From contig JARULB010000002.1 of the NCBI GenBank assembly GCA_029688905.1, positions 124,001-188,000 of the forward strand: DNA of 64,000 bases, in the 5' to 3' direction. How positions within the stretch are numbered: position 1 is the first letter of the stretch; every line of letters starts with the position of its first letter. This document shows positions 1 through 54,187 of this stretch, piece after piece. The notes under the pieces were generated by a model. The model saw nothing but the letters and a program-made list of their open reading frames with translations. It did no database searches and was not told the origin of the DNA. The DNA comes from Balneolales bacterium ANBcel1. GTDB taxonomy: Bacteria > Bacteroidota > Rhodothermia > Balneolales > Natronogracilivirgulaceae. Position numbers and translations under genes: made by a program.

Positions 1-2783
1 AGGTCGCTTCCATCGTTGCCGGTTCGAAGATCTGCGAAAAGCATCTCCGCAATGTGATCCGGCTCTGCCATGAGCCGGTCGTAATCGAAGGCCGTGAATA
101 CAACGGAAAGGTGAGCCGGGATCCGCAAAAGAACAAGAGGCTCCGCAAGGAGATTCTGGAGGCCAGACGCAATAATGTATCTGTCAATTATATCGAACGG
201 GTCATTCAGCTTGCGGCGCAGGGGTACAAGGATATCGTCTTTGAATCGTACGACACGGACTGGAATTCCGAGGCCTACAATACGGTAAGCGGACAAAATT
301 CCAACAATTCCATCCGTGTTCCAAACGACTTCATGAAAGCGTTGAAAAACAACGAGGACTGGCATCTGTATGGCCGGGTGGAACGCAAAAAGGCAGCTGC
401 CGAGGGACGCAAGCCGGAACCGATGAAAACCCTCAGCGCCCGCGAGCTCTGGGATCAGGTTTCGTATGCGGCGTGGTCCTGTGCGGATCCGGGGACGCAG
501 TACCATGACACCATCAACGAATGGCATACCTGCCCGGAAGACGGTCCGATCAAAGCCAGCAATCCGTGTTCCGAGTACATGTTTCTGGATGACACGGCCT
601 GCAACCTGGCCTCTCTCAACCTCATGAAGTTTTATGATGAGAAGCGTCAGCAGTTCCTGGTGGATGATTTCCGCTTTGCTTCGCGGTTGTGGACGGTGGT
701 GCTGGAAATATCCGTTCTGATGGCGCAGTTTCCGTCGGAGCGTATTGCCGAGTTGTCTTACAAGTTTCGTACCCTTGGTCTGGGATACGCCAATATCGGT
801 TCATTGCTGATGGTAAACGGCATTCCGTATGACAGCAGGGAAGCCAATGCGATCTGTGGCGCAATCACTGCGATCATGCACATGAGCTCCTATGCTACCA
901 GTGGCGAAATGGCGGCAGAGCTTGGGGCGTTTCCCGGTTACGAAAAGAACCGGGAGCACATGCTTCGTGTGCTTCGCAACCACCGCAGAGCCGCCTACAA
1001 TGCCGATGAATCGGAGTATGAGGAGCTCACCATCAAGCCGACGGGAATAGATGAGCGCTACTGTCCCGAGTATTTGCTTAAAGCCGCCCGGCAGGATGCC
1101 GACAGAGCGGTGGCCCTTGGCGAAAAACACGGATATCGGAATGCGCAGGTCACCGTTATCGCGCCGACAGGGACCATCGGCCTGGTGATGGATTGCGACA
1201 CGACCGGCATCGAGCCCGATTTTGCATTGGTCAAGTTCAAGAAGCTGGCCGGTGGAGGATATTTCAAGATCATCAACCAGTGTGTTCCGCAGGCACTCCG
1301 CAAGCTGGGATACGATAATAAGAGCATCGAAGAGATTGTCCGGTATGCCAAAGGGCGCGGCTCTCTCAAGGGATGTCCCACGGTCACGCACGAGCGGCTT
1401 GCGGAGGCGGGTTTCACCGACGACAAGATCGAGGCGGTGGAAAAGGCGCTTCCCTCCAGTTTTGATATCAAATTCGCGTTCAATCACTGGACACTTGGTG
1501 AGTCTTTCTGCAAAAACGTGCTGGGCATCGGCGACAATGAACTTGCCGACCCGGGGTTTGATATGCTCCGGCATCTCGGATTCACCCGCAGGGAAATTGA
1601 GCAGGCGAACGATTATGTGTGTGGTACGATGACAGTGGAAGGTGCTCCTCACCTGAAGGAGGAACACTTGCCGGTATTTGACTGCGCCAATAAATGCGGC
1701 CGGACCGGAACCCGGTATATTACGGCCGAAGGCCATATTAATATGATGGCAGCGGCACAGCCGTTCATATCCGGGGCCATATCAAAGACGATTAACCTGC
1801 CCAACGAGGCGACGGTTGATGATATTCAGAGAGTTTATGAGCAGTCGTGGGAAAAAATGCTCAAGGCCAACGCACTCTACCGCGACGGATCAAAACTCAG
1901 CCAGCCGCTGAATGCCATGGCCGATATCATGGATGAGCTGGAAGAAGAGGATGAACAGGAGACATTGCAGCCGGAGTTGCTGCAGCAGCAGGATCAGGTG
2001 GTCAAGACGGCCGAAAAGATCATCCACAAATATGTTACCGGAAGGGAGCGTCTGCCCCACAGGAGGGCCGGCTATACCCAGAAATGCAAAATAGGGGGCC
2101 AATCGGTGTATCTTCGTACCGGAGAGTACGAAAACGGACAGCTGGGAGAAATTTTTATCGATATGCACCGGGAAGGTGCCGCTTTCCGAAGCCTGACCAA
2201 CTGTTTCGCAATAGCCATCTCTCTGGGGCTCCAGCATGGAGTTCCGCTGGAGGAATATGTCGATGCCTTTGTGTTCACCAAGTTTGATCCCAGCGGTACT
2301 GTTATCGGCAACCCCCATATCAAGATGACAACCTCGGTCATAGACTATATCTTCAGGGAACTTGCGGTTACCTATCTGGGCAGGGAGGACCTTGCGCATG
2401 TCGGATCCGAGCACATCGAAAAGCGTTCACTCAAACCGGTTGATGACACTCCAGGCAATGAACCGAATACATCACCAAAAACTGCAGATTCCGATTCATT
2501 CCACAGTCCTTCTGAAACCGGCAGTGCGAAATCGGAGTTGCATACAGGTCATCCGACCGTGGAGGAGACCACACCGGGTCCGGTCTCTGTCTCCGGACAT
2601 TCAGGTGATGCAGCAAGCGGTGGCACGTCACAGCCGCGTTCCCGACGTTCAGATCAAATGGACAGGGCCAGAGAGATGGGATTTACCGGTGATATCTGTT
2701 CGGATTGCGGCAGCCTGACGATGGTTCGGAACGGAACCTGTCTGAAATGCACTACTTGCGGCTCCACAACGGGTTGCTCATGA
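1..2783 (+). CDS. nrdJ: Vitamin B12-dependent (class II) ribonucleotide reductase, 5' end cut off by the window
   Basis: Reduces ribonucleotides to deoxyribonucleotides with adenosylcobalamin as radical source. The reading frame is open from base 3 with no start, so the N-terminal part, including one redox Cys, lies outside the window; the GTG at 54 is internal. Visible: the catalytic loop [19 protein letters not shown] (nt 565-625) with the family's Asn/Cys/Glu triad, the APTGTIG loop and GIEPDFAL segment, then a TSCPD domain (nt about 2080-2400). After it comes a Ser/Thr/Pro-rich linker of about 90 residues (nt 2410-2660) and a C-terminal Cys cluster ([16 protein letters not shown]) that probably acts as zinc site or thiol relay to the active site. 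No partner subunit gene follows, as expected for class II. The family call is very secure. Confidence 0.97.
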
Positions 2784-2798
2784 TGAACTTTCAATCAA

Positions 2799-2833
2799 TC
2801 GCCCTGGCTCTCTTTTTGGGAATACCAGGGCGA
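2799..2833. repeat. Perfect 9-bp inverted repeat just after nrdJ
   Basis: TCGCCCTGG at 2799-2807 pairs perfectly with CCAGGGCGA at 2825-2833 around a 17-nt loop. It starts 16 nt after the nrdJ stop, so it is probably a 3'-end hairpin. No T-tract follows on either strand, so it is not a standard intrinsic terminator; it may stabilise the mRNA end. Confidence 0.55.
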
Positions 2834-2872
2834 AGATTGCTGGTAACAATGGGATTCTTCAGAGGCTAATCC

Positions 2873-3022
2873 TCAATATGCGGTTTTTGATTTGGGGGGG
2901 ATGATCATCCGAATCCATGCACGAATTGTGCGGTGGAGGTAGTGGTACCAGCCGTGGTGGTACTTCTCAAAGGTGTGAAACTTTTCGTACAGCCTGGTGC
3001 GGCTCATATCAGTAGTTTTCAT
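2873..3022 (-). CDS. Small His- and aromatic-rich ORF, 49 residues, unknown function
   Basis: ATG at 3022, stop TGA at 2875-2873. The start is backed by a good Shine-Dalgarno sequence, GGAG, 6 nt upstream on the minus strand. The product is basic and very rich in His, Tyr and Trp (KYHHGWYHYLHR in the middle), ending PPKSKTAY; there is no signal peptide or Cys pair. It would be convergent with nrdJ, with the hairpin at 2799-2833 in between. I recognise no family. The ribosome-binding site and the non-random composition favour a real gene, but its length makes chance possible. Confidence 0.45.
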   Translation of the reverse strand: MKTTDMSRTRLYEKFHTFEKYHHGWYHYLHRTIRAWIRMIIPPKSKTAY

Positions 3023-3369
3023 AGGCATCTCCGTTAAATATTAGCGGTTAGAACAAAAAGAAATAAAAGCGCTTTTCTAACCATATGATAAGGATTTGTA
3101 CGATTTTTTGCAATCAGGGTTGCAAAAAAAGTGGTATTTAATCAAACCCGGTGAGACACGTTATTTCTTCAGGTTGAAGCGGCTTCAAGAGAAAAAAAAG
3201 TATGCAGGGAAAGTGCTCCGGCATTTCCTGCAGTAGAGGGTATTGCAGCTGTGTGACAGGCCCAAAGCGGCTGCAAAGCGGGCAAGAAGATTATTTTTGT
3301 AACAAACAAAGCCATGCGTACTCCTATAGGTACAAAACAGCATAATCACTAATTTTGGAGTACCGCTAA
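3023..3369. other. Intergenic stretch dense in inverted repeats
   Basis: This 347-nt gap holds: GGTTAGAA/TTCTAACC (3046-3053 and 3075-3082) flanking the palindrome AAAAGCGCTTTT (3065-3076); TTGCAA twice (3108-3113, 3120-3125); the palindrome TTGAAGCGGCTTCAA (3174-3188); a hairpin GCAGG(g)AAA(g)TG/CATTTCCTGC (3204-3231) with two one-base bulges; and TTGCAGC/GCTGCAA (3243-3249 and 3270-3276). It ends in the promoter-like motif for the response regulator operon. It could be an operator array or a structured RNA. No convincing protein-coding frame is seen in it. Confidence 0.5.
3298..3330 (+). promoter_or_regulatory. Candidate alternative-sigma promoter for the response regulator operon
   Basis: TGTAACAAA (3298-3306), 11 nt, GTACTCCTAT (3318-3327), one base, GG (3329-3330). 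The same two boxes with exactly the same spacing occur on the minus strand at 8592-8560, facing the lipoprotein/CHAT operon, while the 11-nt spacers are unrelated. That pattern is typical of -35/-10 boxes. Transcription would begin near 3335, about 35 nt before the start codon. A housekeeping-like TATTTTTG overlaps its upstream edge (3292-3299), with no good TTG box at the usual distance. Confidence 0.6.
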
Positions 3370-3978
3370 ATGGAAAGGCATGCACCAGACTTGTTCAGAT
3401 CCAGTGTCGAACCCGGAGTGACACACAGTGACAGGTTCAATGAAATCTGGAATACCTCTCTCGCACAAAAGGTCAGGGCATCAGGTTCAAACAGTGAATT
3501 CGATACAAATATGAATCTGATTGCATATTCGTATTCGACTGGAAACGGAGTGCAGCCCGCAAAGAGAAAACAGAGAGAGTCGGAACATCATCCCCTGGCT
3601 CGGAAAATCAAGGCATTGCACATAGAAGACGATGACGAGATTCGTTTTCTGGTTAAAGCTTTTTTAAAAAATCTCGTGGATGTGGATCCTGCCGCGGATG
3701 GGGATGAAGCGATCACCAATTCCACAAATAATAAATACGACCTGATTATAACGGATATAAATCTTGGCGCCGGTATCGACGGGATCGAAGCAGCCAGGGA
3801 AATCAGAAACATAGGCTACTACCGGAATGTGCCGATCATCGCGGCCACCGCAAATGGCACTTCCGAAGTGAGAAATCAGTGTTTGGAAGCAGGAATGGAT
3901 GCCTTTCTGCTCAAACCATTCATGAAAAGAGACCTGATCAATACCGTTGAACAGGTAATGGAAAACAGAATGTCATAA
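3370..3978 (+). CDS. Receiver-only response regulator with a long N-terminal extension
   Basis: 202 residues. Residues 1-78 are a polar, probably disordered extension with no recognisable domain. Residues 80-200 form a receiver domain with the full phosphorylation set: acidic cluster D87-D89 (HIEDDDE), phospho-acceptor D129 (IITDINLG), T160 and K182 (LLKPF). No DNA-binding or enzymatic output domain follows, so it likely works by protein contact, like CheY- or Spo0F-type regulators. No histidine kinase gene is in the window. Start ATG 3370 has GGAG upstream (3357-3360). The gene precedes the TPR membrane protein by 27 nt, so the two should be co-transcribed, ending at the terminator at 4870. 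Confidence 0.88.
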   Translation: MERHAPDLFRSSVEPGVTHSDRFNEIWNTSLAQKVRASGSNSEFDTNMNLIAYSYSTGNGVQPAKRKQRESEHHPLARKIKALHIEDDDEIRFLVKAFLKNLVDVDPAADGDEAITNSTNNKYDLIITDINLGAGIDGIEAAREIRNIGYYRNVPIIAATANGTSEVRNQCLEAGMDAFLLKPFMKRDLINTVEQVMENRMS

Positions 3979-4005
3979 TTACAATGGGTAGAGGAGTATA
4001 TCAAG

Positions 4006-4737
4006 GTGGACAATAGCGAACTAAAAAAAATTCAGGATCAGATTGATGCCTACCGAAATGGAGAGCTAACCGAAGAGCAGATTGATGATCTTTGGGTTGA
4101 TCTCATTTCATATCCGGATCAAATGGAGTACCTGGTTAACTCTGTGAATCTGGAAAAGCTGGCATCTGATCAGAAGTCACCTGCAAACATTATTGCAGAC
4201 AGCAAAACAGATTATTCCTGGCTCCGGACAATAGGGCGAGTGGCTGCCGTACTGCTGATGGTCACGGGTATCATATCCATGATCTATATGTTCAACTCGG
4301 ACCGGTTTTTTGAGCCGTCTCCACTGGCTGAAATTGAACTCAACAGCTTTCGGTCATCTACAATACCTTCGGACGTTTTTGAGTATGAGCTGCAGCGGGC
4401 CATAAACATGGCATCGCTCGACAAACATGCCAAAGCTCTGGAAAAACTGGAAGATATCCATGGATTGAATTTGTCAGCGGAGCAGGAAATAAAATTGAAG
4501 CTCAGCAAAGGCTCCGTTCTCTACAACCATCACGAATATGCAAAAGCTTCGGAAGTATTCCGGTCGCTGCTGGATGAGTACGATGATTTGCACATTCTGA
4601 CGGAAGAACAGATCCACTGGTTCCTGGGCAACGCCTATCTGCACATGGGTGTGGAGGAACAGGCGCTGGTTCATATCCGGATAACCTATGAGCTCAACGG
4701 TGCGTATCGCCGGCAAGCCGAGCGTTTTCTGAATTGA
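4006..4737 (+). CDS. Membrane TPR protein with anti-sigma-like N-terminal segment
   Basis: 243 residues; GTG start at 4006 with GAGGAG 9 nt upstream. Residues 1-60 are a charged helical segment (YRNGELTEEQIDDLW, then YPDQMEYLVNSVNLE) that by eye resembles the cytoplasmic N-termini of Bacteroidota-type anti-sigma factors lacking a zinc motif. A single membrane helix spans about 76-96, preceded by RTIGR, which predicts the N-terminus inside. Residues 120-243 are TPR-like helical repeats (ALEKLEDI, YNHHEYAKASEVFRSLL, FLGNAYLHMGVEEQAL), predicted periplasmic. Second gene of the response-regulator operon. The anti-sigma role is an inference from layout and weak similarity; the membrane-TPR description is firm. 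Confidence 0.7.
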   Translation: MDNSELKKIQDQIDAYRNGELTEEQIDDLWVDLISYPDQMEYLVNSVNLEKLASDQKSPANIIADSKTDYSWLRTIGRVAAVLLMVTGIISMIYMFNSDRFFEPSPLAEIELNSFRSSTIPSDVFEYELQRAINMASLDKHAKALEKLEDIHGLNLSAEQEIKLKLSKGSVLYNHHEYAKASEVFRSLLDEYDDLHILTEEQIHWFLGNAYLHMGVEEQALVHIRITYELNGAYRRQAERFLN

Positions 4738-4869
4738 AAGTTATATACGGCCGTTTCTTGCACCGTTCTGAAGCGAAGCAAATCTGACAAGCAGCAAAGA
4801 GAATCAATAAGGTTTTTTATTCATCAACGAGTAGCCTGACATCCGCTACTTGATATCCAGTGCAATCTA

Positions 4870-4904
4870 CAGGAAGGACACTTACCATGTCCTTCCTGTT
4901 TTTA
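4870..4904 (+). terminator. Intrinsic terminator of the response regulator/TPR operon
   Basis: CAGGAAGGACA (4870-4880), loop of 7, TGTCCTTCCTG (4888-4898): a perfect 11-bp stem followed by five T. A second hairpin, AGTAGC/GCTACT (4830-4850), lies just before it. It stops plus-strand transcription before the convergent CHAT gene ending at 4929. Confidence 0.92.
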
Positions 4905-4928
4905 TATCTGCCATACTCATAAGGAAAA

Positions 4929-7900
4929 TCAGTGCCTGGAATGGATGCCGGGAAGCCTGATCCAGGTGAGCAAGAGCGTCAGCAGTCCGATGGCAAAAAG
5001 AGCTATACCCGCAAGCCAGAAGTTGAATGACTTGACAACAGGATCGTTGCTTCCATAGATGACAAAAGACCCCCAATATGACGGGTTGCTGTTTGCACTG
5101 TTCATGTAGGCGATTTTTGCCTGCCTCATGGCTTCGCTTTTTTCCATTCCCTCATTGAGATTGGCATAAAACGAGACCGAAAGTTCGTAGGCGGATTGGT
5201 CGCGAATTGTCCAGAGATTCATGACCAGACTTTTTACACCGGCATAGTTGAATGCCCGGCTGAATCCGACGATACCACTCCCCTGAATATAATTGCCGGA
5301 GCCGGATTCACAGGAATTCAGCATAACCATCTCGTTGGAAAGATCCATGCCAAAAAGTTCATAGGCGTAAATGAGTCCGCTTTCGGCATTGCCCTCGGGG
5401 TTACTTTCCGGCCTCTCCGGACTCATATAGATTGGAGAGTAGAGCGGATCGGTTTCAAATACTTCGCTGTGAGAAGCCAGGTGGAGAATTCGGCTTTTGC
5501 CGGAGTAGTTCCTGAAGGCATTTTTGGTGCTTGTCTGTGAGTGGTGATAGACATTATTGGTAAGGCGGTCCAGGCGGTTTGAAATTTCGGTAACTTCCCG
5601 TTCAGCGAGCGGCAACGGGGGGAGGTTGCGACCTGTCATCAACCGGCTTTCCTGGCCCTCGAAATGGGAAATTCCGAATCCGAGAAAATCGAGGCTGTGG
5701 GCAGTTGCCGGAGTATGGTCGAATGCCGCCTCAAGATCCTTCAGGGAGTTGGCATAGGAAACCGATGCATGTTCTATCAAATAGGTTGCCTCTCCATAGC
5801 TGTAGTCGCCTGACACGCTGTTAAGTGGCAGTATTTCAAGCGGAATGTGGTAGAGAAATCCGTCCGGGATAACGTAGTAATTACTGTGTCTGTCATCAAT
5901 ATTCAGGACATCAATCACCTTGCTTCGGAACCATTCCAGCTCCTTCAGTCGTATACGGTCACCTGACAGGCTCTCCACCAGCTTGTCCACACGCTCGAGC
6001 TCCTGCTCTGAAAAGGGTATATGATGAATATCGAATGAACCGGAGGTGATGGTAGAGGCGTACAGATCATCTTCAAACAGACTGAAATAGAGAATGATGT
6101 CGGAGCGGCGCAGCTGCCGGCGGATTTTTGCGAAGTTGAACGGCTCCAGGTCAATGTGCTGGAGAACCTTTCTTCGAAGCATATTCTGTTGTGAGGTCGC
6201 TTCTACGAGTTGATTGTTGAGCTCATAGCGCCGTTGTCCTTCGGCATGGATCATTTCCGAGCGCAGCCGTTCGATGCGGTTGCGCAGGGCGTAGTCGTGG
6301 GTAAGCTCGCTTTCCGTAAGAATCGAGGACTTAAGCGCGGGATTGTTGAAAAAGGCGAAAGAGCTGAGATTTTTAACCTCGTCCATCCAGAAAAGGGCCT
6401 CTTCATGCCGGTTGTGCTCTGTGAGTTGTTTTATAAGTAAATTGAAAATTCCGGCATAGAACGAATCGAAAAACATGTGGCCCGACTGCAGGTCGGTAGT
6501 ATGTCGAACTCGTTCGATTATTTTATTGGCACTCATTGAAAGCAAGTCAAGGGCTTTTTGAGTGTTGTTATTATGAATATGTTTTTTGGCCAGTAACTCG
6601 TTTAGTTTCTTTTGAGATCTAAACGAAAGTATTGACTGATCATGATCTAATAACTTATTAACATATCTAGTAGCACTTCCATGGTTGCCTATCAAGAAAT
6701 GGATATCTGCTAATTTCAAATAAGAGTGTAAAATAATGATATCATCACCTTCTGATTTTCCCTCATCCAAAAACAATTGAACGGCTTCAATCGCTTTGTC
6801 AAATAACTCAAAGTCGTAGTACAAATGAAATAGGTCAGAATACCCAATTAAAATCAAATTTTTATTACCCGTTTCCCTGCCGATCGATATATATTTATTG
6901 ATAGCCTCCAATGATGGCTCAAAAGCATGTTCAAATCGCCAATGATACCTCGAAAATGTTCGATAAATCCTAGCAAGAATGCTTAAATCTGAGATTTGAT
7001 CGGTAATTGCCCGCATTTGTTTTATTTGACCCTTGGCGCTATTCCAATTTGACAGACTAGCATAGTAATTATATAAATTAATATAGCTCTGAGCACGGAA
7101 GTTGTCATCGTCATACCTATTAGCATGTGCAAGAGAACTGGATATGAGTTCTATATATTTTTCAAAATAGCCAAGATCATAGTATGCAATACCTAGGTTG
7201 TTCAAGATTGCGACCTGATACCTATAGTCATCAAATACGTCAAAATGATTGTAGACATACTCCAGTGTTTCCACAGCTCCTTGAATCTGGCCGATTTGAA
7301 TTAGTATAGCTCCAAAGTCAAATCTAGCTATAACTTGATCTTTTAATGAGAGGTAATTGGAAAGAGGAAGGATGAGGTTTCTGTTAAGATCCAGGTCATA
7401 TTGATAGTAACCACGAAAATATGATGAGAACGATATATACCGCAGTAGTCGAATGGACTGGTCAGACACGGGCAGTTCGGAGTAACGGGAAATGGATTGC
7501 GCCAACCGGTAAACCTGCTCCTCCTGCTGCAGCCGGTAGTGACCGTTGATCAGGATCAATAACTGCACGATATCTTCTGCACGAGATAGACTGAAATTAT
7601 CCAGGCGCTGCTCGTACCAATCGTTCAGCTCCTGTCGTACATGGGTACTTGCCGTGTCCTGTTCGTAGATGGCGTCGAAATAGTAGAAATCCAGGGGCGT
7701 TGCGTCTCTTCTGTGCAGCGAGTAGGACTCATTGATATCACCGGACTGCAAAAAGTGAAGGTGAAAACGCTCCTTGTCGGTCAGTTCATCTCGATTCAGA
7801 CTTGCCAGAAGGGAAGCACGATCCGGTTCCCCGGATTGATGTTCGTGAAGATAGATGAGTGCAAGGGTGGGCTTGTCGATGCACTCTACCAAGCGGCGGG

Positions 7901-8210
7901 GATATTCCTTTCTGGCAGAATGCCCTTCACCGGTTTGCTGGCCAACACATCTTGCAATACGGTAGGATCGGGGAAAGGCTTGCGGATCACCCAAGACCAT
8001 ATCCACAAACAGGGTGCGGGCGCGGGTATTGGATTGCAGTACCTGGTACAGGAGCCAGGCGGACTCTGACGAGTGGCTTTGCTCAAAATCGCTCGCGTAA
8101 AAAAGAAGCTGCTCTCTGATGGTGTTTTCCTGACCATCAGAGAGCTCGATTCCCTTGGCCGCGGACGCGACCAGCAAACTAAAAAAAAATATAAAAACGG
8201 TACGGGTCAC
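4929..8210 (-). CDS. Exported TPR-CHAT peptidase, C-terminally membrane-anchored
   Basis: 1093 residues. Residues 1-20 form a signal peptide (MTRTVFIFFFSLLVASAAKG). Residues about 60-600 are helical TPR-type repeats; a coiled-coil-like stretch follows (about 650-700). Residues about 780-1060 form a CHAT domain, a caspase/separase-clan Cys peptidase fold, with the dyad His914 (HLASHSE) and Cys967 (MLNSCESGSG) intact, plus GFSRAFNYAG and SLVMNLW. A terminal membrane helix (about 1065-1085) and a basic tail end the protein, so the CHAT domain should lie in the periplasm, tethered to the inner membrane. Bases 6540-7440 (residues about 257-557) are markedly AT-rich, unlike both flanks. The lipoprotein gene lies 60 nt upstream in the same direction; the response-regulator operon converges on it. 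CHAT assignment is secure; the substrate is unknown. Confidence 0.93.
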   Translation of the reverse strand: MTRTVFIFFFSLLVASAAKGIELSDGQENTIREQLLFYASDFEQSHSSESAWLLYQVLQSNTRARTLFVDMVLGDPQAFPRSYRIARCVGQQTGEGHSARKEYPRRLVECIDKPTLALIYLHEHQSGEPDRASLLASLNRDELTDKERFHLHFLQSGDINESYSLHRRDATPLDFYYFDAIYEQDTASTHVRQELNDWYEQRLDNFSLSRAEDIVQLLILINGHYRLQQEEQVYRLAQSISRYSELPVSDQSIRLLRYISFSSYFRGYYQYDLDLNRNLILPLSNYLSLKDQVIARFDFGAILIQIGQIQGAVETLEYVYNHFDVFDDYRYQVAILNNLGIAYYDLGYFEKYIELISSSLAHANRYDDDNFRAQSYINLYNYYASLSNWNSAKGQIKQMRAITDQISDLSILARIYRTFSRYHWRFEHAFEPSLEAINKYISIGRETGNKNLILIGYSDLFHLYYDFELFDKAIEAVQLFLDEGKSEGDDIIILHSYLKLADIHFLIGNHGSATRYVNKLLDHDQSILSFRSQKKLNELLAKKHIHNNNTQKALDLLSMSANKIIERVRHTTDLQSGHMFFDSFYAGIFNLLIKQLTEHNRHEEALFWMDEVKNLSSFAFFNNPALKSSILTESELTHDYALRNRIERLRSEMIHAEGQRRYELNNQLVEATSQQNMLRRKVLQHIDLEPFNFAKIRRQLRRSDIILYFSLFEDDLYASTITSGSFDIHHIPFSEQELERVDKLVESLSGDRIRLKELEWFRSKVIDVLNIDDRHSNYYVIPDGFLYHIPLEILPLNSVSGDYSYGEATYLIEHASVSYANSLKDLEAAFDHTPATAHSLDFLGFGISHFEGQESRLMTGRNLPPLPLAEREVTEISNRLDRLTNNVYHHSQTSTKNAFRNYSGKSRILHLASHSEVFETDPLYSPIYMSPERPESNPEGNAESGLIYAYELFGMDLSNEMVMLNSCESGSGNYIQGSGIVGFSRAFNYAGVKSLVMNLWTIRDQSAYELSVSFYANLNEGMEKSEAMRQAKIAYMNSANSNPSYWGSFVIYGSNDPVVKSFNFWLAGIALFAIGLLTLLLTWIRLPGIHSRH

Positions 8211-8270
8211 ACGGAAACCTCATACTGGGAGTCACATGAAACCCGAAAATAATAATATTAGTATGCAGTA

Positions 8271-8483
8271 TCAATCAGGGCGGATTCGAATGACATCACC
8301 TCTACCACTTGAGGGGCCCTCATACTGCTCAATCATTTCATCCTGTGCCTGAAAATCTTGCGCATCAAATTTCATTTGGCCATCCGCCTCGTTGAGGTTG
8401 GGGGAGGTAATACCGGTGCAGGAGGTAAGAAGGAATGCAAATGTAATGGTTGCGAGGACAGAAACGTTCTTGAAGTTTTTCAT
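8271..8483 (-). CDS. Small lipoprotein, 70 residues
   Basis: Start chosen at the ATG at 8483, since it gives a classic lipoprotein signal: MKNFKNVSV, a hydrophobic core, then LLTSC with the lipidation Cys at residue 21. The mature part is about 50 residues, acidic, with no known domain (QAQDEMIEQYEGPSSGRGD). It lies 60 nt upstream of the TPR-CHAT gene on the same strand, so the two share a transcript, presumably from the motif at 8592-8560. The frame is open 17 codons further up, but those do not begin like a signal peptide. It may be an envelope sensor, or an inhibitor or substrate of the CHAT protein; nothing in the sequence decides. Confidence 0.72.
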   Translation of the reverse strand: MKNFKNVSVLATITFAFLLTSCTGITSPNLNEADGQMKFDAQDFQAQDEMIEQYEGPSSGRGDVIRIRPD

Positions 8484-8559
8484 GACGTAAGGGGTTTTTT
8501 GTATTGAAGTGATCAAGAGTAAATGATACCGCACAGGGGCGGTTTTGTTTTATGTCTTG

Positions 8560-8592
8560 CCAATAGGAGTACTCGGACCCCTATTTGTTACA
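8560..8592 (-). promoter_or_regulatory. Candidate alternative-sigma promoter for the lipoprotein/CHAT operon
   Basis: Read on the minus strand: TGTAACAAA, 11 nt, GTACTCCTAT, T, GG. It matches the element in front of the response regulator (3298-3330) at all 21 box positions with identical spacing, while only about 3 of 11 spacer bases agree. The start point would be near 8555, giving a leader of about 70 nt to the lipoprotein ATG. The downstream box also forms the palindrome GAGTACTC (8567-8574). Confidence 0.6.
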
Positions 8593-8707
8593 TTTTTTTT
8601 TAAAAAAGATGAGATAATTGCAAAATACTGGCTCCAAAGGCCTTAATTATTTCAATATTATGCCGATAATACAGAGTTTTCTTATTGTAAAAAGACAGAT
8701 TAGAGTA

Positions 8708-8737
8708 TTGTAACAATCAGGAAATGATTTATTTTTG
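8708..8737 (+). promoter_or_regulatory. Bacteroidota-type housekeeping promoter of the ECF-like sigma gene
   Basis: TTG at 8708-8710, 19 nt, TATTTTTG at 8730-8737: a full match to the Bacteroidota TTG-N19-TAnnTTTG form. The upstream box sits in the palindrome ATTGTAACAAT (8707-8717), which contains TGTAACAA, the first box of the locus-specific motif. It could therefore be an operator or a point of cross-control. Predicted transcription starts near 8744. Confidence 0.6.
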
Positions 8738-8763
8738 TAGCGCCATATTCATTGTATATGAGT

Positions 8764-8785
8764 ATCCCCTTCGTTCGTTGGGGAT
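8764..8785 (+). repeat. Hairpin in the sigma-gene leader
   Basis: ATCCCC (8764-8769) and GGGGAT (8780-8785) form a perfect 6-bp stem with a 10-nt loop containing TTCGTTCG. It lies in the roughly 130-nt 5' leader of the sigma gene, which also holds a tight CGCTGACAGCG palindrome (8816-8826) and a run of seven T. The rest of the 8484-8873 gap is AT-rich, including a T-run/A-run at 8588-8605, and holds no gene I can support. Confidence 0.35.
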
Positions 8786-8873
8786 GATTCAGGTTTGTAT
8801 CTGCGCCAATGCTGCGCTGACAGCGACGTTAAGCCACTGGTTTTTTTATTGTAAATTATAGGCATACAGAGCT

Positions 8874-9437
8874 TTGCAACAATCTTCTTCAGACTTTTCG
8901 CTCCTGATTGAGGCCATTCTGCGAGATGACAGAGTGACTGCCGACCAGCTAGCACCGGATCTATTGAACCGGGTGATTCTCTATTTACGCGTCAGAATGG
9001 ATGCTCCGCAAAAAGTTGCTGAAGAGTGCGTGTATCAAGCGTTTTCTGTAGTTTTTGATAAAATTCGGGAGGATCGCATCAGCGACCACAAGTCGGTTTT
9101 CAAATACCTGATGACCGCCTCGCGAAATGAGTACCTGAGCTTCATCAAACGGGAAAAAAGAAATGATGATGACTCCGCCGATGAAATGGCGACGCTGCAG
9201 CAACCTCCCGATCAGCTGCAAACCCTTATTGATCAAGAGCGGCAGGAGAGGCTCGATCGATGCCTGAAAAAACTGCCGGATGAACACCGCCGCTTTATTC
9301 TCAGCTTTTTTTCGAGCCGGCCCGTCGACCTTTCCGCGATCGGCAAACGTTTTGGATTTTCTTACGCCAAAACCCGGACTCTGAAGACAAGAATCATGCA
9401 ACAACTGCAGCAATGTGTTCAAAAATCAGACATTTAA
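8874..9437 (+). CDS. ECF-like sigma-70 family RNA polymerase sigma factor
   Basis: 187 residues. Region 2 spans about 45-100 (VYQAFSVVFDKI, then YLMTASRNEYLSFIKREKR, the core-binding and -10 helix). Region 4 spans about 130-180 (LDRCLKKLPDEHRRFILSFF, then a helix-turn-helix SAIGKRFGFSYAKTRTLKTRI). No region 1.1 or 3, as in ECF factors. A stop lies five codons upstream and the only start in that space is TTG at 8874, so initiation may be weak. No anti-sigma gene follows directly; the nearest anti-sigma-like proteins are at 4006 and 12386. It is divergent from the lipoprotein/CHAT operon and is a candidate to read the bipartite motif there. Confidence 0.82.
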   Translation: MQQSSSDFSLLIEAILRDDRVTADQLAPDLLNRVILYLRVRMDAPQKVAEECVYQAFSVVFDKIREDRISDHKSVFKYLMTASRNEYLSFIKREKRNDDDSADEMATLQQPPDQLQTLIDQERQERLDRCLKKLPDEHRRFILSFFSSRPVDLSAIGKRFGFSYAKTRTLKTRIMQQLQQCVQKSDI

Positions 9438-9582
9438 CAACTTTTTGCATTTCCATTGCGTATCTGACCGGAAAAAGTTATAATCACCGATAGCATCGAA
9501 TATCAGCCGTTTATCCTTAAAATGCGGCATGGAGTTTGGATGCTGGTAACATGGTTAATTTTCCAATTGAGCTTTGAATCAT

Positions 9583-9795
9583 ATGTCAGAAGAACGTGAA
9601 ACCGGTGTCGTGAAATGGTTCAACGGCGCCAAAGGGTATGGCTTTATCAGCCGGGAAAGCGGTGAAGACCTATTTGTTCATTTTAGTGAAATACAGGAAG
9701 AGGGCTACCGCGTATTGAACGAAGGTGACAAAGTTGAATTCACTGTTGCTGAAAGTGAAAAGGGCTTGCAGGCCAAAGAAGTAATCAAAGTCTGA
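9583..9795 (+). CDS. Cold shock protein (CspA family)
   Basis: A 70-residue single cold-shock domain that binds single-stranded RNA and DNA and melts RNA structure. RNP1 (KGYGFISR) and RNP2 (LFVHFSEI) are intact, with the usual TGVVKWFNGAKG opening. The ATG at 9583 gives the standard length; a TTG three codons upstream is possible but unneeded. It has a leader of up to 145 nt after the sigma gene, and a monocistronic layout with its own terminator at 9808. A TATAAT-like hexamer at 9479 was noted, but this lineage rarely uses it. Confidence 0.95.
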   Translation: MSEERETGVVKWFNGAKGYGFISRESGEDLFVHFSEIQEEGYRVLNEGDKVEFTVAESEKGLQAKEVIKV

Positions 9796-9807
9796 GTAAA
9801 ATATTCG

Positions 9808-9841
9808 GTGCGGAATACATTGCGTGTTCTGCACGTTTTTT
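9808..9841 (+). terminator. Intrinsic terminator of the cold shock gene
   Basis: GTGCGGAA (9808-9815) pairs with TTCTGCAC (9827-9834), 8 bp including one G-U, loop of 11, followed by G and six T. Confidence 0.85.
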
Positions 9842-10043
9842 GTTCAGCGTGGGCAGGTGCTCAATTGAGATTTTCTCGCTGAGTTTATGTAACTTCATGC
9901 AGTCATTGCATGCCGGTTTGACAGCCACTCTGTTCACAAAACCGGATATCAATGCATTCACTGGCTGTTTGCCTGCCTGTCAAAAGGATCGACGTTCTGA
10001 TGGCGTTCTTCCTTTTTGGCCCATTTCCCATTACTGTTAACTT

Positions 10044-11498
10044 ATGATGCTTGCTGTTGCTGGTCTTTTACTGGTTCTATTTCTCACATTATTGATTGCA
10101 AGAACACTGAGGTATACCAGGCATCACGGACAACAACAGCAGCATATCCCGTCACGGGTGGATATTGACGAAGCCGCCAAACGTCTTGGAAAAGCCATCC
10201 GATATCAAACGATTTCAACCCAGGATCAGGAAGATTTCAACGAGGATGCCTTCCTGCAAATGCACCACTTCCTGGAGAAATCGTTCCCACATCTCCATGC
10301 CACTCTGGATAAGGAGATTGTGAGCGGCTATAGCCTGCTATATACGTGGAAAGGAAAGAACCCCGAATTGAAGCCGGTCATGCTCACCAGCCACATCGAT
10401 GTGGTTCCGGTAGAGCCCGGCACCGAAGATGACTGGCTGCATCCCCCGTTTGAGGGAAGAATCTCTGACGGGTATATCTGGGGGCGCGGAGCCATGGACG
10501 TGCAAGGTGGCGTCCTGGCAATTATGGAGGCGGTTGAAATACTCCTGGAAACGGGCTTTAGTCCAGAGAGAACCATCATCCTTGGGTTCGGTCACGACGA
10601 AGAGGTTGATGGCGACAAAGGCGCGTTTCAAATCGGCCGCCTGCTGGAAGAGAGGGGCACGCAACTGGAGTTCCTCCTGGACGAAGGTACTCCGATTGTT
10701 CATGACATCCTTCCGCAACTGGCTAGTCCGGTGGCTCTGGTGGCTGTCGCCGAGAAAGGGTATCTGAGCCTGGAGATTTCAACGACAGCCGAAGGCGGAC
10801 ACTCTTCGGTTCCCCAGGGACTCACCTCCATAGCCGTTCTGAGTGAAGCCATCCACAAACTTGAAAACAACCCCATTAAGGGTAAGGTAGACGGCCTGGT
10901 TAAACGGACCATGGAGGCGATCGGCCCCCAATTGCCCTTTCTCTTCCGGATGGTGATGGCAAATCTGTGGCTGTTCCGGGGTCTGGTTAAACGTGAACTG
11001 GCTCAAATGCCCGCGACCAAAGCCGCACTCGGCACCACCATTGCAACCACCATTTTTGAGTCCGGTGTCAAGGAGAATGTGCTGCCGACCCAGGCGCGTG
11101 CCATTGTCAACTTCCGAATCCATCCGAACGATACCATTGATAGCGTCATTGAGCATGTTACCCGAACTGTGAACGACCCCGGCATCACCATCACGCCACT
11201 ACACGGGTCTATCAACCCGTCGCATGTTTCGGATGTGAAGAGCACCCCTTACCGAATGCTCGAAACAACCATCAGAGAGGTGTTTCCGGAAGTGGTTGTT
11301 GCACCCACATTGATGGTCGGCGCCACGGATGCCAGACATTACTCCAGGCTCACAAAGAATATCTACCGGTTTATTCCGCTGCGGGCGGATGAAAGCGATC
11401 TCGATCGCGTGCATGGAACAGACGAACGGATTTCCAAACACAATTATCATGAAATGATCTTTTTCTATACACGGTTACTTGAGAACGCTTCGTCGTGA
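10044..11498 (+). CDS. M20 family metallopeptidase, PM20D1-like, membrane-anchored
   Basis: 484 residues. An N-terminal membrane helix (about 3-20) is followed by a two-zinc M20 hydrolase: SHIDVVP (first zinc His about 117 with Asp 119), GRGAMDVQGG (bridging Asp about 152), GHDEEVDG (general-base Glu pair) and a C-terminal HGTDERI His. The lid/dimerisation domain lies between about 245 and 370 (GGHSSVPQG). Closest in form to the carboxypeptidase S/PM20D1 branch, which cleaves or forms N-acyl amino acids; the true substrate here is unknown. ATG at 10044 or 10047. The PIG-L gene follows 30 nt later, suggesting co-transcription. The 200 nt before it show nothing beyond the csp terminator. Confidence 0.9.
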   Translation: MMLAVAGLLLVLFLTLLIARTLRYTRHHGQQQQHIPSRVDIDEAAKRLGKAIRYQTISTQDQEDFNEDAFLQMHHFLEKSFPHLHATLDKEIVSGYSLLYTWKGKNPELKPVMLTSHIDVVPVEPGTEDDWLHPPFEGRISDGYIWGRGAMDVQGGVLAIMEAVEILLETGFSPERTIILGFGHDEEVDGDKGAFQIGRLLEERGTQLEFLLDEGTPIVHDILPQLASPVALVAVAEKGYLSLEISTTAEGGHSSVPQGLTSIAVLSEAIHKLENNPIKGKVDGLVKRTMEAIGPQLPFLFRMVMANLWLFRGLVKRELAQMPATKAALGTTIATTIFESGVKENVLPTQARAIVNFRIHPNDTIDSVIEHVTRTVNDPGITITPLHGSINPSHVSDVKSTPYRMLETTIREVFPEVVVAPTLMVGATDARHYSRLTKNIYRFIPLRADESDLDRVHGTDERISKHNYHEMIFFYTRLLENASS

Positions 11499-11528
11499 CA
11501 ACCCGCAACATCGAACCTATTCCGGCAT

Positions 11529-12236
11529 ATGCGCGCACTGTATATTTTTCCCCATCCCGATGATGAATCCTTTGGCCCCGCTCCGGCAATGGCCGGTCAG
11601 CTCCGTTCGGGCCATGAGGTGTTCTTGCTGACATACACCCGTGGTGGTGCAACCAGGATCAGACATGACTACGGGTTGTCTGTGGATGAGATGGGAGCCG
11701 TAAGGCTGGATGAAATGAAGGCCGTGGAAAAAGTGCTTGGCCTCAGCGGTATGGAGGTCCTGGATCTGCCCGACAGTGGATTGAAACATATGAACCCCAT
11801 CGAGCTGGAAGAGATCACCGAGCAGCACATCCGGAAGGTGAAACCGGATGTCGTAGTCAGTTATCCCGTACATGGTGTGAGCGGGTTTCAGGATCACCTC
11901 GTAACCCACGCTATAGTGAAACGCGTTTTCTGCAAGCTGCGGGACGAGTGGGAGGGGGCTCCGCGGCGCCTTGCTTTTTTTACACTGGCTGAAAGCGATA
12001 AAAAAGACCGGAAATTTCAGCTCAACACATCGTCACAGGATGAAATTGACTGCGCCACACCACTTTCGAAAAGTGATTTGGAGCTTGGCAAGCGGGCCCT
12101 GGACTGTTATAAAACCTACCAGGAAGTGATCAATGAGGTAGGGGTTATGGAAAGAATCGGAGACACCGTATTCTTTGAGTTTTTTCAAGAGTCGTTTCGC
12201 ACCCATCTGAAAAGTCTGTTTGACAGACTGCCTTAG
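11529..12236 (+). CDS. PIG-L/LmbE family zinc deacetylase
   Basis: 235 residues. The N-terminal motif FPHPDDES gives the metal-binding His9 and catalytic Asp; the second half of the site is DHLVTH near residue 120, as in MshB, BshB and LmbE proteins that remove N-acetyl groups from sugars or sugar conjugates. There is no signal peptide, so it is cytoplasmic. Which substrate (a bacillithiol-type precursor, another GlcNAc conjugate, or a xenobiotic) cannot be told; no partner glycosyltransferase is adjacent. It follows the M20 peptidase by 30 nt and converges on the gene at 12386 across a 149-nt gap with no clear terminator. Confidence 0.9.
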   Translation: MRALYIFPHPDDESFGPAPAMAGQLRSGHEVFLLTYTRGGATRIRHDYGLSVDEMGAVRLDEMKAVEKVLGLSGMEVLDLPDSGLKHMNPIELEEITEQHIRKVKPDVVVSYPVHGVSGFQDHLVTHAIVKRVFCKLRDEWEGAPRRLAFFTLAESDKKDRKFQLNTSSQDEIDCATPLSKSDLELGKRALDCYKTYQEVINEVGVMERIGDTVFFEFFQESFRTHLKSLFDRLP

Positions 12237-12385
12237 CGGCAATATTACAGTGGCTCAAGCATCCTCTTCCCGGCCCGGTTAAAAGCGCACCAGGTATGCT
12301 CTCGATCACTGGTCCCCGACGGCGTAGGTGAATTCAGTCGAAACGCTGCGGTGCATAACAATAGCAAACCCTGCCTGTGGCCGCT

Positions 12386-13249
12386 TTATTCGGGAAGCAA
12401 TGCCGCAAGGGTTTCCCCATCATGGCGGGAGATCCCCACATACCAGGTCTCATTCCATTTCCAGGAGACCAGATCACGGTTTCTCATGGTGCTCACAAAA
12501 TAATCGCCCCTGGTTACACAATGGGCAACCGCATCCGGATCACGGACCAGTCGCTGCTCCAGATCGGTTTCCGGAAGGGCAAACACATAGATGATATCAT
12601 CCGGACCCATTTCGTAAACAAACAACGGAGTTCGAAGTTCGGGTACGAACTCGGTGTCCACAACACCGGCCAGTCTGGCTCCGTTAATCCGGGGAATGTC
12701 GATACGGTAGTTGAAATGCTCCGCCAGAAGGGACGACATTTCATCGGAAGGGAGAGGAGGGATGTCTGGCTGCAATGACATTCCACGCGTTGTTTCGTAG
12801 TGATGATACGCCATCCACTCCACACTTGGGCGGTCATGCTCTGCCATCACCTGCTCTGAAGAGGTTCCGTTGAGTAACAGAAACAGATACAGCAGGATTG
12901 AAAGCAGTACCGATGCCGCCACAGCGATAGCAGCAATACGCCTGATGTCGGGGGTTCTTCGAATTGAAAAAGGTACGAACAGACCATCATCAGAAAACAA
13001 ACGCTCTTGCCCGGCAAGATGTGTAATGGTGGATGATATTTTCTTCCTCAGCGCAGGGGGAGCGGAATGATACCGGCCATGTCGCTTCACAAGCTTTTTT
13101 ATAAGCTGCTCCTCTTCAAAATACCGGCGTACATCCTCGTCAGTTTCCAGGAAATCAAAAAAGAACTTTTTTTCTTCTTCAGAGGCTTCGTCGTCCACGA
13201 CCGGCGTCACCAGTTCAAAAGCTCTAATCTTTTTCTGTTCGTGTGACAT
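12386..13249 (-). CDS. Anti-sigma-factor-like transmembrane protein, orphan
   Basis: 287 residues. Residues 1-75 are a charged helical domain (EEEKKFFFDFLETDEDVRR, LIKKLVKRHGRY) like the cytoplasmic sigma-binding part of Bacteroidota anti-sigma proteins without a zinc motif. A basic stretch (RRTPDIRR) leads into one membrane helix at about 105-127. Residues 130-287 are a predicted periplasmic domain resembling anti-sigma sensor ends (the DYFVSTMRNRDLVSWKW and ETWYVGISR strands). No sigma gene is adjacent on its strand, which is unusual for such proteins; the partnerless sigma at 8874 is 3 kb away. Function is inferred from architecture only. Confidence 0.65.
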   Translation of the reverse strand: MSHEQKKIRAFELVTPVVDDEASEEEKKFFFDFLETDEDVRRYFEEEQLIKKLVKRHGRYHSAPPALRKKISSTITHLAGQERLFSDDGLFVPFSIRRTPDIRRIAAIAVAASVLLSILLYLFLLLNGTSSEQVMAEHDRPSVEWMAYHHYETTRGMSLQPDIPPLPSDEMSSLLAEHFNYRIDIPRINGARLAGVVDTEFVPELRTPLFVYEMGPDDIIYVFALPETDLEQRLVRDPDAVAHCVTRGDYFVSTMRNRDLVSWKWNETWYVGISRHDGETLAALLPE

Positions 13250-13267
13250 TTTTCGTGGAAAATATGC

Positions 13268-13275
13268 TATGTTTG
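13268..13275 (+). promoter_or_regulatory. Possible -7 box for the DUF481 gene
   Basis: TATGTTTG matches TAnnTTTG and lies 122 nt before the chosen start at 13398, within 20 nt of the divergent anti-sigma-like start codon. No good TTG box is seen at the expected distance. Confidence 0.3.
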
Positions 13276-13397
13276 AGACGTTTTACCGACATACATGCCG
13301 GACAGGGAAGGCCTATTATTCGTTTCCATTTTAAACGGAATTTCCAGGTTCAGCGTTCTTGTGCTCAAAATCATGTGAATCTCGCAATAATTCCCGT

Positions 13398-14180
13398 ATG
13401 CGCCATTTTTCTACGTCACTTTTTCTCTGCACTCTGACCTTTTTTTTGATGGATCCCGCCGATGCCGATGCCCAGGTGGTTAATGTGGAGCGCCATCGGG
13501 TTCAGGCCGATACGTTTAATGTCTGGACAGGCGGACTCGGTTTCGGACTCAGTGTTTCCAAAAGCGCCAATCAGGTAGTTCGGTTAAACACTACATCAGA
13601 TCTGACCTATGTGGCAAAAAAACACGATTTTCTTTTTATTGCCCGGAATAATTTTCTCAGAGTGGAAGGCGAAAATGTAATGAACGACGGCTATGCCCAC
13701 CTGAGAGCCGTTCTTTTCCGTGATAATACCCTGGCCCCGGAGGTTTTTCTTCAGGCCCAGTACAATCTCGACTGGGGACTGGCCCGGCGAACGCTTGCCG
13801 GTAGCAACGTGCGCATCAGACTCCATGAAACCGATTCTTTTTCCGCATTTGTAAGTACCGGCCTGATGTTCGAAAATGAAATATGGAAGGATGAGGATGA
13901 GGACCTCCGGGACGTCCGGAATTTGTTGAAGTCAACCACCAGTTTCAACCTGCGGGGACGCCTCACGGATTCGGTGGATCTGGCAGCGATCAGCTATTAC
14001 CAGGCGCGGCCCGACCGGTTTTTCAAGCCCCGGTTTACCTCCGACTGGCAAGTGCGTTTCCGGATATCCGAAAATCTGCGGTTTGCCCTGCAGTTTGTCA
14101 GTACCTTTGATTCCGACCCGCCACTGAACTCCACAGAATTCATATACAATATCAACAACATCCTGGAAGTTAGATTCTGA
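13398..14180 (+). CDS. DUF481-like exported beta-barrel protein
   Basis: 260 residues from the ATG at 13398, which gives a normal signal peptide (MRHFSTSLFLCTLTFFLM, then ADAQ cleavage); the in-frame extension to 13359 lacks signal features. The mature part alternates polar and hydrophobic residues in beta-strand style (LNTTSDLTYVAKKHDFLFI, NLRFALQFVSTFDSDPP) and ends NNILEVRF with a terminal Phe, typical of outer-membrane barrels. It resembles DUF481 proteins of unknown role. It is divergent from the anti-sigma-like gene, and the thioredoxin lipoprotein follows 130 nt later. Confidence 0.72.
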   Translation: MRHFSTSLFLCTLTFFLMDPADADAQVVNVERHRVQADTFNVWTGGLGFGLSVSKSANQVVRLNTTSDLTYVAKKHDFLFIARNNFLRVEGENVMNDGYAHLRAVLFRDNTLAPEVFLQAQYNLDWGLARRTLAGSNVRIRLHETDSFSAFVSTGLMFENEIWKDEDEDLRDVRNLLKSTTSFNLRGRLTDSVDLAAISYYQARPDRFFKPRFTSDWQVRFRISENLRFALQFVSTFDSDPPLNSTEFIYNINNILEVRF

Positions 14181-14309
14181 TGCAGAACCGTGCCGTGGTA
14201 TCCGTCCGGAAACATCGTTTTTTTCTATCTTTCATGCTTTGTGCAAACTACGATATTCCCGTCGTCACATGCTGATCTGCCGGCCATTACGTTCTAACGA
14301 AAAACCGAA

Positions 14310-14834
14310 ATGTATCTCTTGATGAAGCCCATAAAAATTATCGCAGTCATGATACCGCTGCTTTTGGTATCCTGCAACTCGGGAGGCGAATCCACCCTGA
14401 CCGGAGCCGGTTCGCCGGAACACGAATTCTGGGTGACGCTGGAAGAGGCCCAGGAGCGGGCCTATGACGAAGGGCAGCACATGCTGCTGGATATCTACAC
14501 CGAATGGTGTGGCTTCTGCCGCCGCATGAACGCCGAAACCTATGCTGACGAAGGGGTACAGGAGCTGCTGGACCGATATTTTATTGCGACCCGAATAAAT
14601 GCGGAATCCAGTCAGTCCGTTACATTCCTGGGCCGTTCGTACACGATGGAGGAGCTGGCGCTTCAGTTTGGCGTCGCCTCCTATCCAACCACGGTCTTCC
14701 TCACACCAAACGGAGAACCGCTTGCCGCACAGGCCGGTTTTTTTGAAGCCCCGCACTTTCGACAAATGCTGGGTTATGTCGGTACAGGAAGCTATCAGGA
14801 AGTCACATTCGAAGAATATTCAAACACTCAATAG
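14310..14834 (+). CDS. Thioredoxin-fold lipoprotein
   Basis: 174 residues. A lipoprotein signal has its lipid-accepting Cys at residue 22 (LLLVSC). The thioredoxin domain carries the redox motif EWCGFC (Cys67, Cys70) and the cis-Pro loop VASYPTTVFL. The arrangement resembles DUF255/thioredoxin_7 periplasmic reductases. It probably passes electrons to envelope disulfides, fed by the DsbD encoded 36 nt downstream. ATG at 14310 used; the ATG at 14322 (MKPIKII) would give an equally good signal. Confidence 0.88.
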   Translation: MYLLMKPIKIIAVMIPLLLVSCNSGGESTLTGAGSPEHEFWVTLEEAQERAYDEGQHMLLDIYTEWCGFCRRMNAETYADEGVQELLDRYFIATRINAESSQSVTFLGRSYTMEELALQFGVASYPTTVFLTPNGEPLAAQAGFFEAPHFRQMLGYVGTGSYQEVTFEEYSNTQ

Positions 14835-14870
14835 GCAGCACCAGGCTGTTGTCATGCCCGAATTCCCATC

Positions 14871-54158: not shown

Positions 54159-54187
54159 CCAGCTTTGTTACAAGCAGGTGAATTTAT

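Follow-up and report, generated by a model that had tools for sequence, protein, structure and literature searches.

The window, a stretch of 64,000 nt from the genome of Balneolales bacterium ANBcel1, contains two copies of a bipartite motif about 5 kb apart, which face inward around four genes. Copy 1 reads TGTAACAAA-N11-GTACTCCTAT-N-GG at 3298-3330 on the plus strand, and copy 2 lies at 8592-8560 on the minus strand. The positions and identity given for this pair in a preliminary description were borne out, with 21 of 21 box bases the same between the copies, and so was the divergence of the spacers, which agree at 3 of 11 bases. Dinucleotide shuffles of the window gave an expectation of 0.00 matches, and in a scan of the host genome (3.32 Mb, ≤3 mismatches) the pair were the only matches, with 0 for the mirrored control. 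Comparison with relatives refined the boxes to TGTAACAAA and (TA)CTC[TC]T[GA]T with 12 bases between them. The column profile showed that the leading G of GTACTC varies among relatives and that the trailing GG, which had been counted as part of the motif, is not conserved in them. The predicted ECF-type promoter of the response-regulator/anti-sigma operon spans 3298..3327 (+), with the -35 box TGTAACAAA at 3298-3306 and the -10 box TACTCCTAT at 3319-3327, and that of the lipoprotein/CHAT operon spans 8563..8592 (-), with the -35 at 8592-8584 and the -10 at 8571-8563. From the box end at 3327 there are 42 nt to the ATG of the response regulator (3370), and from the box end at 8563 there are 79 nt to the probable ATG of the lipoprotein (8483). 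We also observed that GTACTCC of the first -10 (3318-3324) is complementary to GGAGTAC (3353-3359) at the ribosome-binding site of the response regulator; the expected transcript starts downstream of this -10.

The plus-strand operon starts with a gene for a CheY-like response regulator (3370..3978, +). Its receiver domain (aa 84-193, PF00072, E=5e-23) is preceded by an N-terminal extension, and no DNA-binding domain was found in it with Pfam and NCBIfam. The gene is present in families f1, f4 and f5 and in genus g26, and in most f3 genomes the operon is found without it. The next gene (4006..4737, +) encodes a predicted membrane anti-sigma factor with a cytoplasmic three-helix domain (1-56), a transmembrane (TM) segment (72-99) and a periplasmic TPR domain (122-242). 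Its AF2 model (pLDDT 82.5), which speaks for the fold only, has helices at 3-17, 23-35 and 37-56 and shows the layout of membrane anti-sigma factors: an N-terminal helical domain, one TM helix and a periplasmic domain. We call it predicted because it has no match to a curated anti-sigma family in Pfam and NCBIfam. The gene is conserved in 24 loci and neighbours an ECF sigma gene, and a paralogue (25% identity, E=1e-13) lies directly downstream of the second ECF sigma gene of the host genome (L113 6569-7231). On this model and sequence evidence the protein is very probably the anti-sigma factor of the local sigma. Elsewhere in the window another anti-sigma-like protein is encoded at 12386-13249 (-), with one apparent TM helix and a weak, below-cut-off match to the RsrA model (E=5e-6).

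The convergent operon consists of genes for a small lipoprotein (8271..8483, -) and an exported TPR-CHAT protein with a C-terminal TM anchor (4929..8210, -; PF12770, E=1e-47). The lipoprotein has 70 aa (MKNFKNVSVLATITFAFLLTSCTG...IRIRPD) and a lipobox in its sequence, and it most likely starts at ATG 8483 rather than at GTG 8534, because the former start is conserved in relatives. Its tail is also conserved, as IRIRPD, IIIRPD or IxxKP. In many relatives the gene (60-70 aa) occurs in two to three tandem copies that are nearly or fully identical; such copies were seen between the motif and the CHAT gene in L084, L089, L075-L081 and L093-L105. Their near identity, together with the contig ends and N-runs found there in many assemblies, suggests concerted evolution and assembly collapse. 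For the His-Cys dyad of CHAT proteases the protein has His910, His914 and Cys967, invariant in the alignment of 15 of 15 orthologues. When its model (pLDDT 75) was compared with the PDB in Foldseek, Csx29 was the best match (E 3e-12), followed by DdvA (E 1e-10), a likeness that is at fold level only and partly due to TPR. Some CHAT orthologues carry in-frame stops (G057:C8:98046-100505, G111:C5, G091:C14) and are possibly pseudogenes or sequencing errors. A role in anti-phage defence was rejected, as PADLOC gave no match for the four proteins.

Next to the second promoter lies a gene for an ECF sigma factor (8874..9437, +), the most likely reader of both promoters. Its product matched TIGR02937 with 44.6 bits (cut-off 42.9) over aa 30-181, it has sigma regions 2 and 4 only, as ECF factors do, and its profile also matched RpoE 2q1z (E=3e-6) and TIGR02985. 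Orthologues span the order and stand beside the motif pair order-wide. A third copy of the motif had been suggested upstream of this gene. Although TGTAACAA is present at 8709, a promoter-like site was found at this place in 1 of 37 loci, namely the window itself, where the weak motif-like site at 8709..8738 (+) reads TGTAACAATCAGGAAATGATTTATTTTTGT with 3 mismatches. TGTAACAA or its complement is found also at 54165, and the 8709 site is probably a chance match. Since the third copy is not conserved, autoregulation of the sigma gene is not supported. In genus g9 (L085-L090, L206) a different element, [ACG]GTAACTTTGRATAA, is conserved about 82 nt upstream of the sigma gene, and it may be this gene's own promoter.

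The scan of relatives covered 147 genomes; regions flanking motif pairs and sigma orthologues were retrieved and compared. Sites that read TGTAACAAA-N12-TACTCTTGT were numerous and often formed inward-facing pairs 4-5 kb apart. The genes of the window keep their order and orientation in relatives, usually with a motif at both outer ends, and families f1, f3, f4 and f5 share one layout: motif, the response-regulator gene where present and the anti-sigma gene in one direction, then the CHAT and lipoprotein genes and the second motif in the other, then the sigma gene pointing away. For footprint counts we allowed ≤4 mismatches and searched 250 nt ahead of the gene that opens the regulator/anti-sigma operon and 1200 nt ahead of CHAT. 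The pair had been proposed as a promoter that relatives should share, and this was the case for both operons: the response-regulator/anti-sigma operon had the footprint in 22 of 24 orthologous loci (mirrored control 0, shuffles 0.15), and the lipoprotein/CHAT operon in 21 of 24 (mirrored control 1, shuffles 0.3). A scan of f1 only with a degenerate pattern (3 mismatches) gave a signal equal to the control. Only TGTAACAAA and CTCYT(R)T carry column information; the spacer is unconstrained, and the bases upstream are rich in A/T. Among the selected sites TGTAAC is invariant, the spacer columns hold about 0-0.3 bit and the spacing is 12 bases. Because these sites were picked by their match to the motif, the profile describes the motif and the footprint controls are the test of it. 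The lipoprotein genes of f3 genomes often have two motifs in front of them, at a distance of about 80 nt from each other.

The abundance of the motif follows the presence of the locus. We divided the genomes into 93 with a CHAT orthologue (E <= 1e-50) and 54 without; a tight pattern gave 358 matches against 29 for its mirror in the former and 17 against 11 in the latter. There are about 5-20 sites per genome, and Fodinibius halophilus (G069) had 20 matches and 0 control matches. The sites do not look like random intragenic hits, as 40 of 42 viewed in context, mostly from outside the CHAT/sigma locus, lie outside ORFs of at least 120 aa, while 635 of 840 random positions (76%) fall inside such ORFs. 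With the consensus of the relatives the host genome yielded further candidates at C3:239751 (1 mismatch) and at C9:46890 and the 8709 site (3 each), and all matches together numbered 4+4 against 0+3 in the control. Hits had been expected upstream of this locus and few other genes; the operons of the locus are preceded by the motif, but the regulon is wider than the locus.

Type IV pilin-like genes (MGQQQLLLVILV...) are preceded by the motif in the host genome and in four f3 genomes, and ParA-like ATPase genes in three genomes. The other motif-preceded genes encode HU-type DNA-binding proteins, receiver and Hpt proteins and small AraC-HTH proteins. The AraC-HTH type includes the host, where a gene for a double-glycine-type small peptide comes next. 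F. halophilus adds secreted S8, C10, M23 and metallopeptidase-toxin-like proteins. Around the C3 candidate (G000:C3:239751; L082:3252-4070) the motif stands 38 nt before the small AraC-HTH gene (PF12833, E=6e-10), which is followed by genes for a bacteriocin-like peptide of 75 aa, which has a leader of the Gly-Gly type and a core rich in glycine, and for small membrane proteins. Around the C9 candidate (G000:C9:46890; L083:2714-3184) it precedes the pilin-like gene MGQQQLLLVILV, and further downstream come a second copy and a PilC/GspF-like gene.

The -10 box varies among relatives together with the sigma factor. The sigma of genus g26 and of parts of f4 shares no more than 27-32% identity with the best query. 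Both operons keep the -35 TGTAACAAA in these genomes and have GCATC[AC]TA where others have TACTCTTGT; the -10 of this divergent sigma clade reads GCATCATA, at both promoters together. Among 55 loci with sites at both operons, a tally that counts some genomes twice, the -10 was of CTC type on both sides in 41, of ATC type on both sides in 7 and of another type on both sides in 2, and 5 loci, some of them with several candidate sites, were discordant. On the sigma tree the -10 type needs 6 changes, against 11.2 for shuffled labels, and 0 of 200 shuffles were as low. The main ATC set is a single well-supported sigma clade. ATC is found also in three long-branch rows (L091, L302, L102) of unsure placement, and L102 is mixed, with CTC on the other side. 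Less favourable to the explanation given below are genus g19 of f4 (L100, L101), which keeps TGTAACAA without a clear -10, and L283 and similar loci, whose -10 is unlike that of the window. The joint switching of the -10 with the local sigma clade argues that the neighbouring sigma reads the motif, and it is the best evidence that we have for this reader.

ECF promoters are marked by two boxes, a spacer that is constant in length but free in sequence, AAC in the -35 and a position upstream of genes. The motif has all of these marks, and it resembles E. coli sigma-E promoters in the AAC of the -35, the TC of the -10 and the ECF spacing. The dedicated ECF-type promoter that had been suspected here is strongly supported by the order-wide footprints, the locus-linked enrichment, the intergenic sites and the joint -10 switching, and from these sequence comparisons we hold with high confidence that the motif is such a promoter, conserved in this order of halophilic bacteria. 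The same evidence strongly supports the proposal that both operons and the neighbouring sigma form one regulon. Co-occurrence and covariation make it very likely that the local sigma (8874) reads the motif. Taken together, a promoter, its sigma and its targets are the best explanation of the locus, and we consider it very likely, the protease step being left aside.

The sigma (8874-9437) would act on both promoters and thereby on two convergent operons, one for the response regulator and the anti-sigma factor and the other for the lipoprotein and the TPR-CHAT protein, while its own gene apparently lacks autoregulation. Sigma freed from the anti-sigma factor would produce more of its own inhibitor, a negative feedback, and more of its caspase-like periplasmic sensor/protease and of the lipoprotein, which might serve to reset the circuit or to set its gain; elsewhere in the genome a few genes for envelope and secretion functions would be raised too. 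In the signalling step that we think most likely, an envelope event would be perceived via the lipoprotein and the periplasmic TPR domains, and the TPR-CHAT protease would then cleave the anti-sigma factor in its TPR ectodomain, or push this domain aside, and free the sigma. The computation shows the conserved ECF-type promoters, the genes that they precede and their tie to the local sigma; that the sigma binds them, that the 4006 protein acts as anti-sigma factor in a negative feedback and that CHAT releases the sigma by proteolysis, with the lipoprotein perhaps as sensor input, is what we infer. That CHAT is a regulator or protease of the anti-sigma factor has, in our judgement, nearly an even chance.

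The promoter reading can also be kept with a different role for CHAT, as a sigma-induced effector or processor of secreted proteins, the anti-sigma factor being controlled by a ligand or a phosphorelay receiver. CHAT itself is in the regulon, which also holds receiver and Hpt proteins and many secreted peptidases, as this would suggest. Against it, the trio of sigma, TM-TPR gene and exported TPR-CHAT is fixed in Bacteroidota too, and in its fold CHAT is akin to two proteins with links to the control of ECF sigmas, DdvA and Csx29. We regard such an effector role as a serious possibility, somewhat below even. A peptide variant of the proposed circuit, in which the sigma-driven tandem lipoproteins, with their identical copies and conserved C-terminal tail, are cleaved by CHAT, the peptide is read by the anti-sigma TPR domain and the regulon is autoinduced, is unlikely. 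If true, it would be a cell-to-cell or self-sensing system in a Gram-negative group, with pilin-like, bacteriocin-like and secreted-peptidase genes in the autoinduced regulon.

Another sigma, the L113 6569-7231 paralogue or a further ECF factor, might read the promoter, the neighbouring sigma being incidental. Two or more related ECF sigmas are encoded in the genome, the second of which could share the site, and the local sigma gene has no autoregulation footprint. But the motif enrichment tracks the presence of the CHAT/sigma locus and the -10 variant tracks the local sigma clade, so we consider this quite improbable.

The primary sigma of Bacteroidota/Balneolota has the consensus TTG at -33 and TAnnTTTG at -7. 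TACTCTTG of f3 has one difference from TAnnTTTG, and T often stands before TG at the right distance, so we considered a housekeeping promoter accompanied by a site for an activator, such as the response regulator or an AraC-type protein. It is disfavoured because the ATC-clade -10 GCATCATA is unlike TAnnTTTG although the -35 and the spacing are kept. The nine near-invariant -35 bases with only about 5-20 sites per genome and the absence of a DNA-binding domain in the response regulator also speak against it, and it is very unlikely. The copies face each other around four genes and have TGT-type ends, which recall Tn7-like ends, and might therefore delimit a segment (3298-8592) that moves or inverts, as its terminal inverted repeats or its recombination sites. 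This reading was rejected as next to impossible, because the motif is also single, intergenic and before unrelated genes order-wide, its spacer is unconstrained, no transposase is encoded between the copies, and the locus keeps its layout and orientation throughout the order although the spacers are of many kinds.

Several known systems are similar in part. In DdvS/DdvA of Myxococcus xanthus (PDB 8rot, 8rw5) an ECF sigma is likewise held by a membrane anti-sigma factor, and the Balneolales TPR-CHAT protein has the structure of DdvA among its best matches in fold. DdvS is active once DdvA is inactivated and has a DdvS-dependent promoter of its own (PMC4374960), whereas the Balneolales sigma gene apparently has no self-dependent promoter. 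The one-polypeptide layout of DdvA, expected from the fold match, was not found: ASD-TM-TPR and TPR-CHAT are separate in all complete loci, encoded in two operons and, unlike DdvA, with opposite membrane topology. The Csx29-Csx30-CASP-sigma system of type III-E CRISPR (Craspase) likewise consists of protease, inhibitor and ECF sigma: the TPR-CHAT protease Csx29 cuts Csx30, a protein that binds an ECF sigma and inhibits it, and sigma motifs occur in the locus (PMC10028731). By contrast, the Balneolales CHAT is a predicted exported protein with a membrane anchor, the inhibitor differs from Csx30 in being a small TM-TPR protein, and conservation is Balneolales-wide; among the ORFs viewed at positions 1-16000 of the window no CRISPR genes (Cas7-11/gRAMP) were seen.

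The E. coli sigma-E/RseA/DegS system shares the ECF sigma, the one-TM anti-sigma factor and a periplasmic protease as the likely trigger, but here the protease has a CHAT and not an HtrA fold, sigma and anti-sigma are separately transcribed and the anti-sigma ectodomain is TPR. Bacteroidota ECF factors with FecR-type regulators or PorXY-SigP are alike in the one-TM anti-sigma logic and in related sigma models (TIGR02985), but the Balneolales locus has TPR-CHAT and a small lipoprotein instead of a FecR domain or TonB receptor. A search of open-access literature gave no paper describing an ECF/CHAT system in Balneolales. The system is of a known kind, an ECF sigma with a membrane anti-sigma factor and a protease, but its split architecture, its lipoproteins in tandem and its promoter code are new.

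Two -10 variants that track sigma clades give a testable promoter code for the Balneolales ECF system, and the cultured hosts Gracilimonas, Fodinibius and Balneola open the system to testing. Balneolota and Bacteroidota both have the ECF sigma, the one-TM TPR anti-sigma candidate and the exported TPR-CHAT protein as a set, which places the CRISPR-linked Csx29-Csx30-sigma system and Myxococcus DdvA within a broader class of sigma control linked to CHAT and not confined to CRISPR. In the Bacteroidota loci L263-L266 the genes for the ECF sigma, the TM-TPR protein and the exported TPR-CHAT protein adjoin, and those for sigma and TM-TPR overlap in L264. A histidine kinase gene lies beside the trio in L265, and histidine-kinase-like ORFs were seen in L263 and L266.
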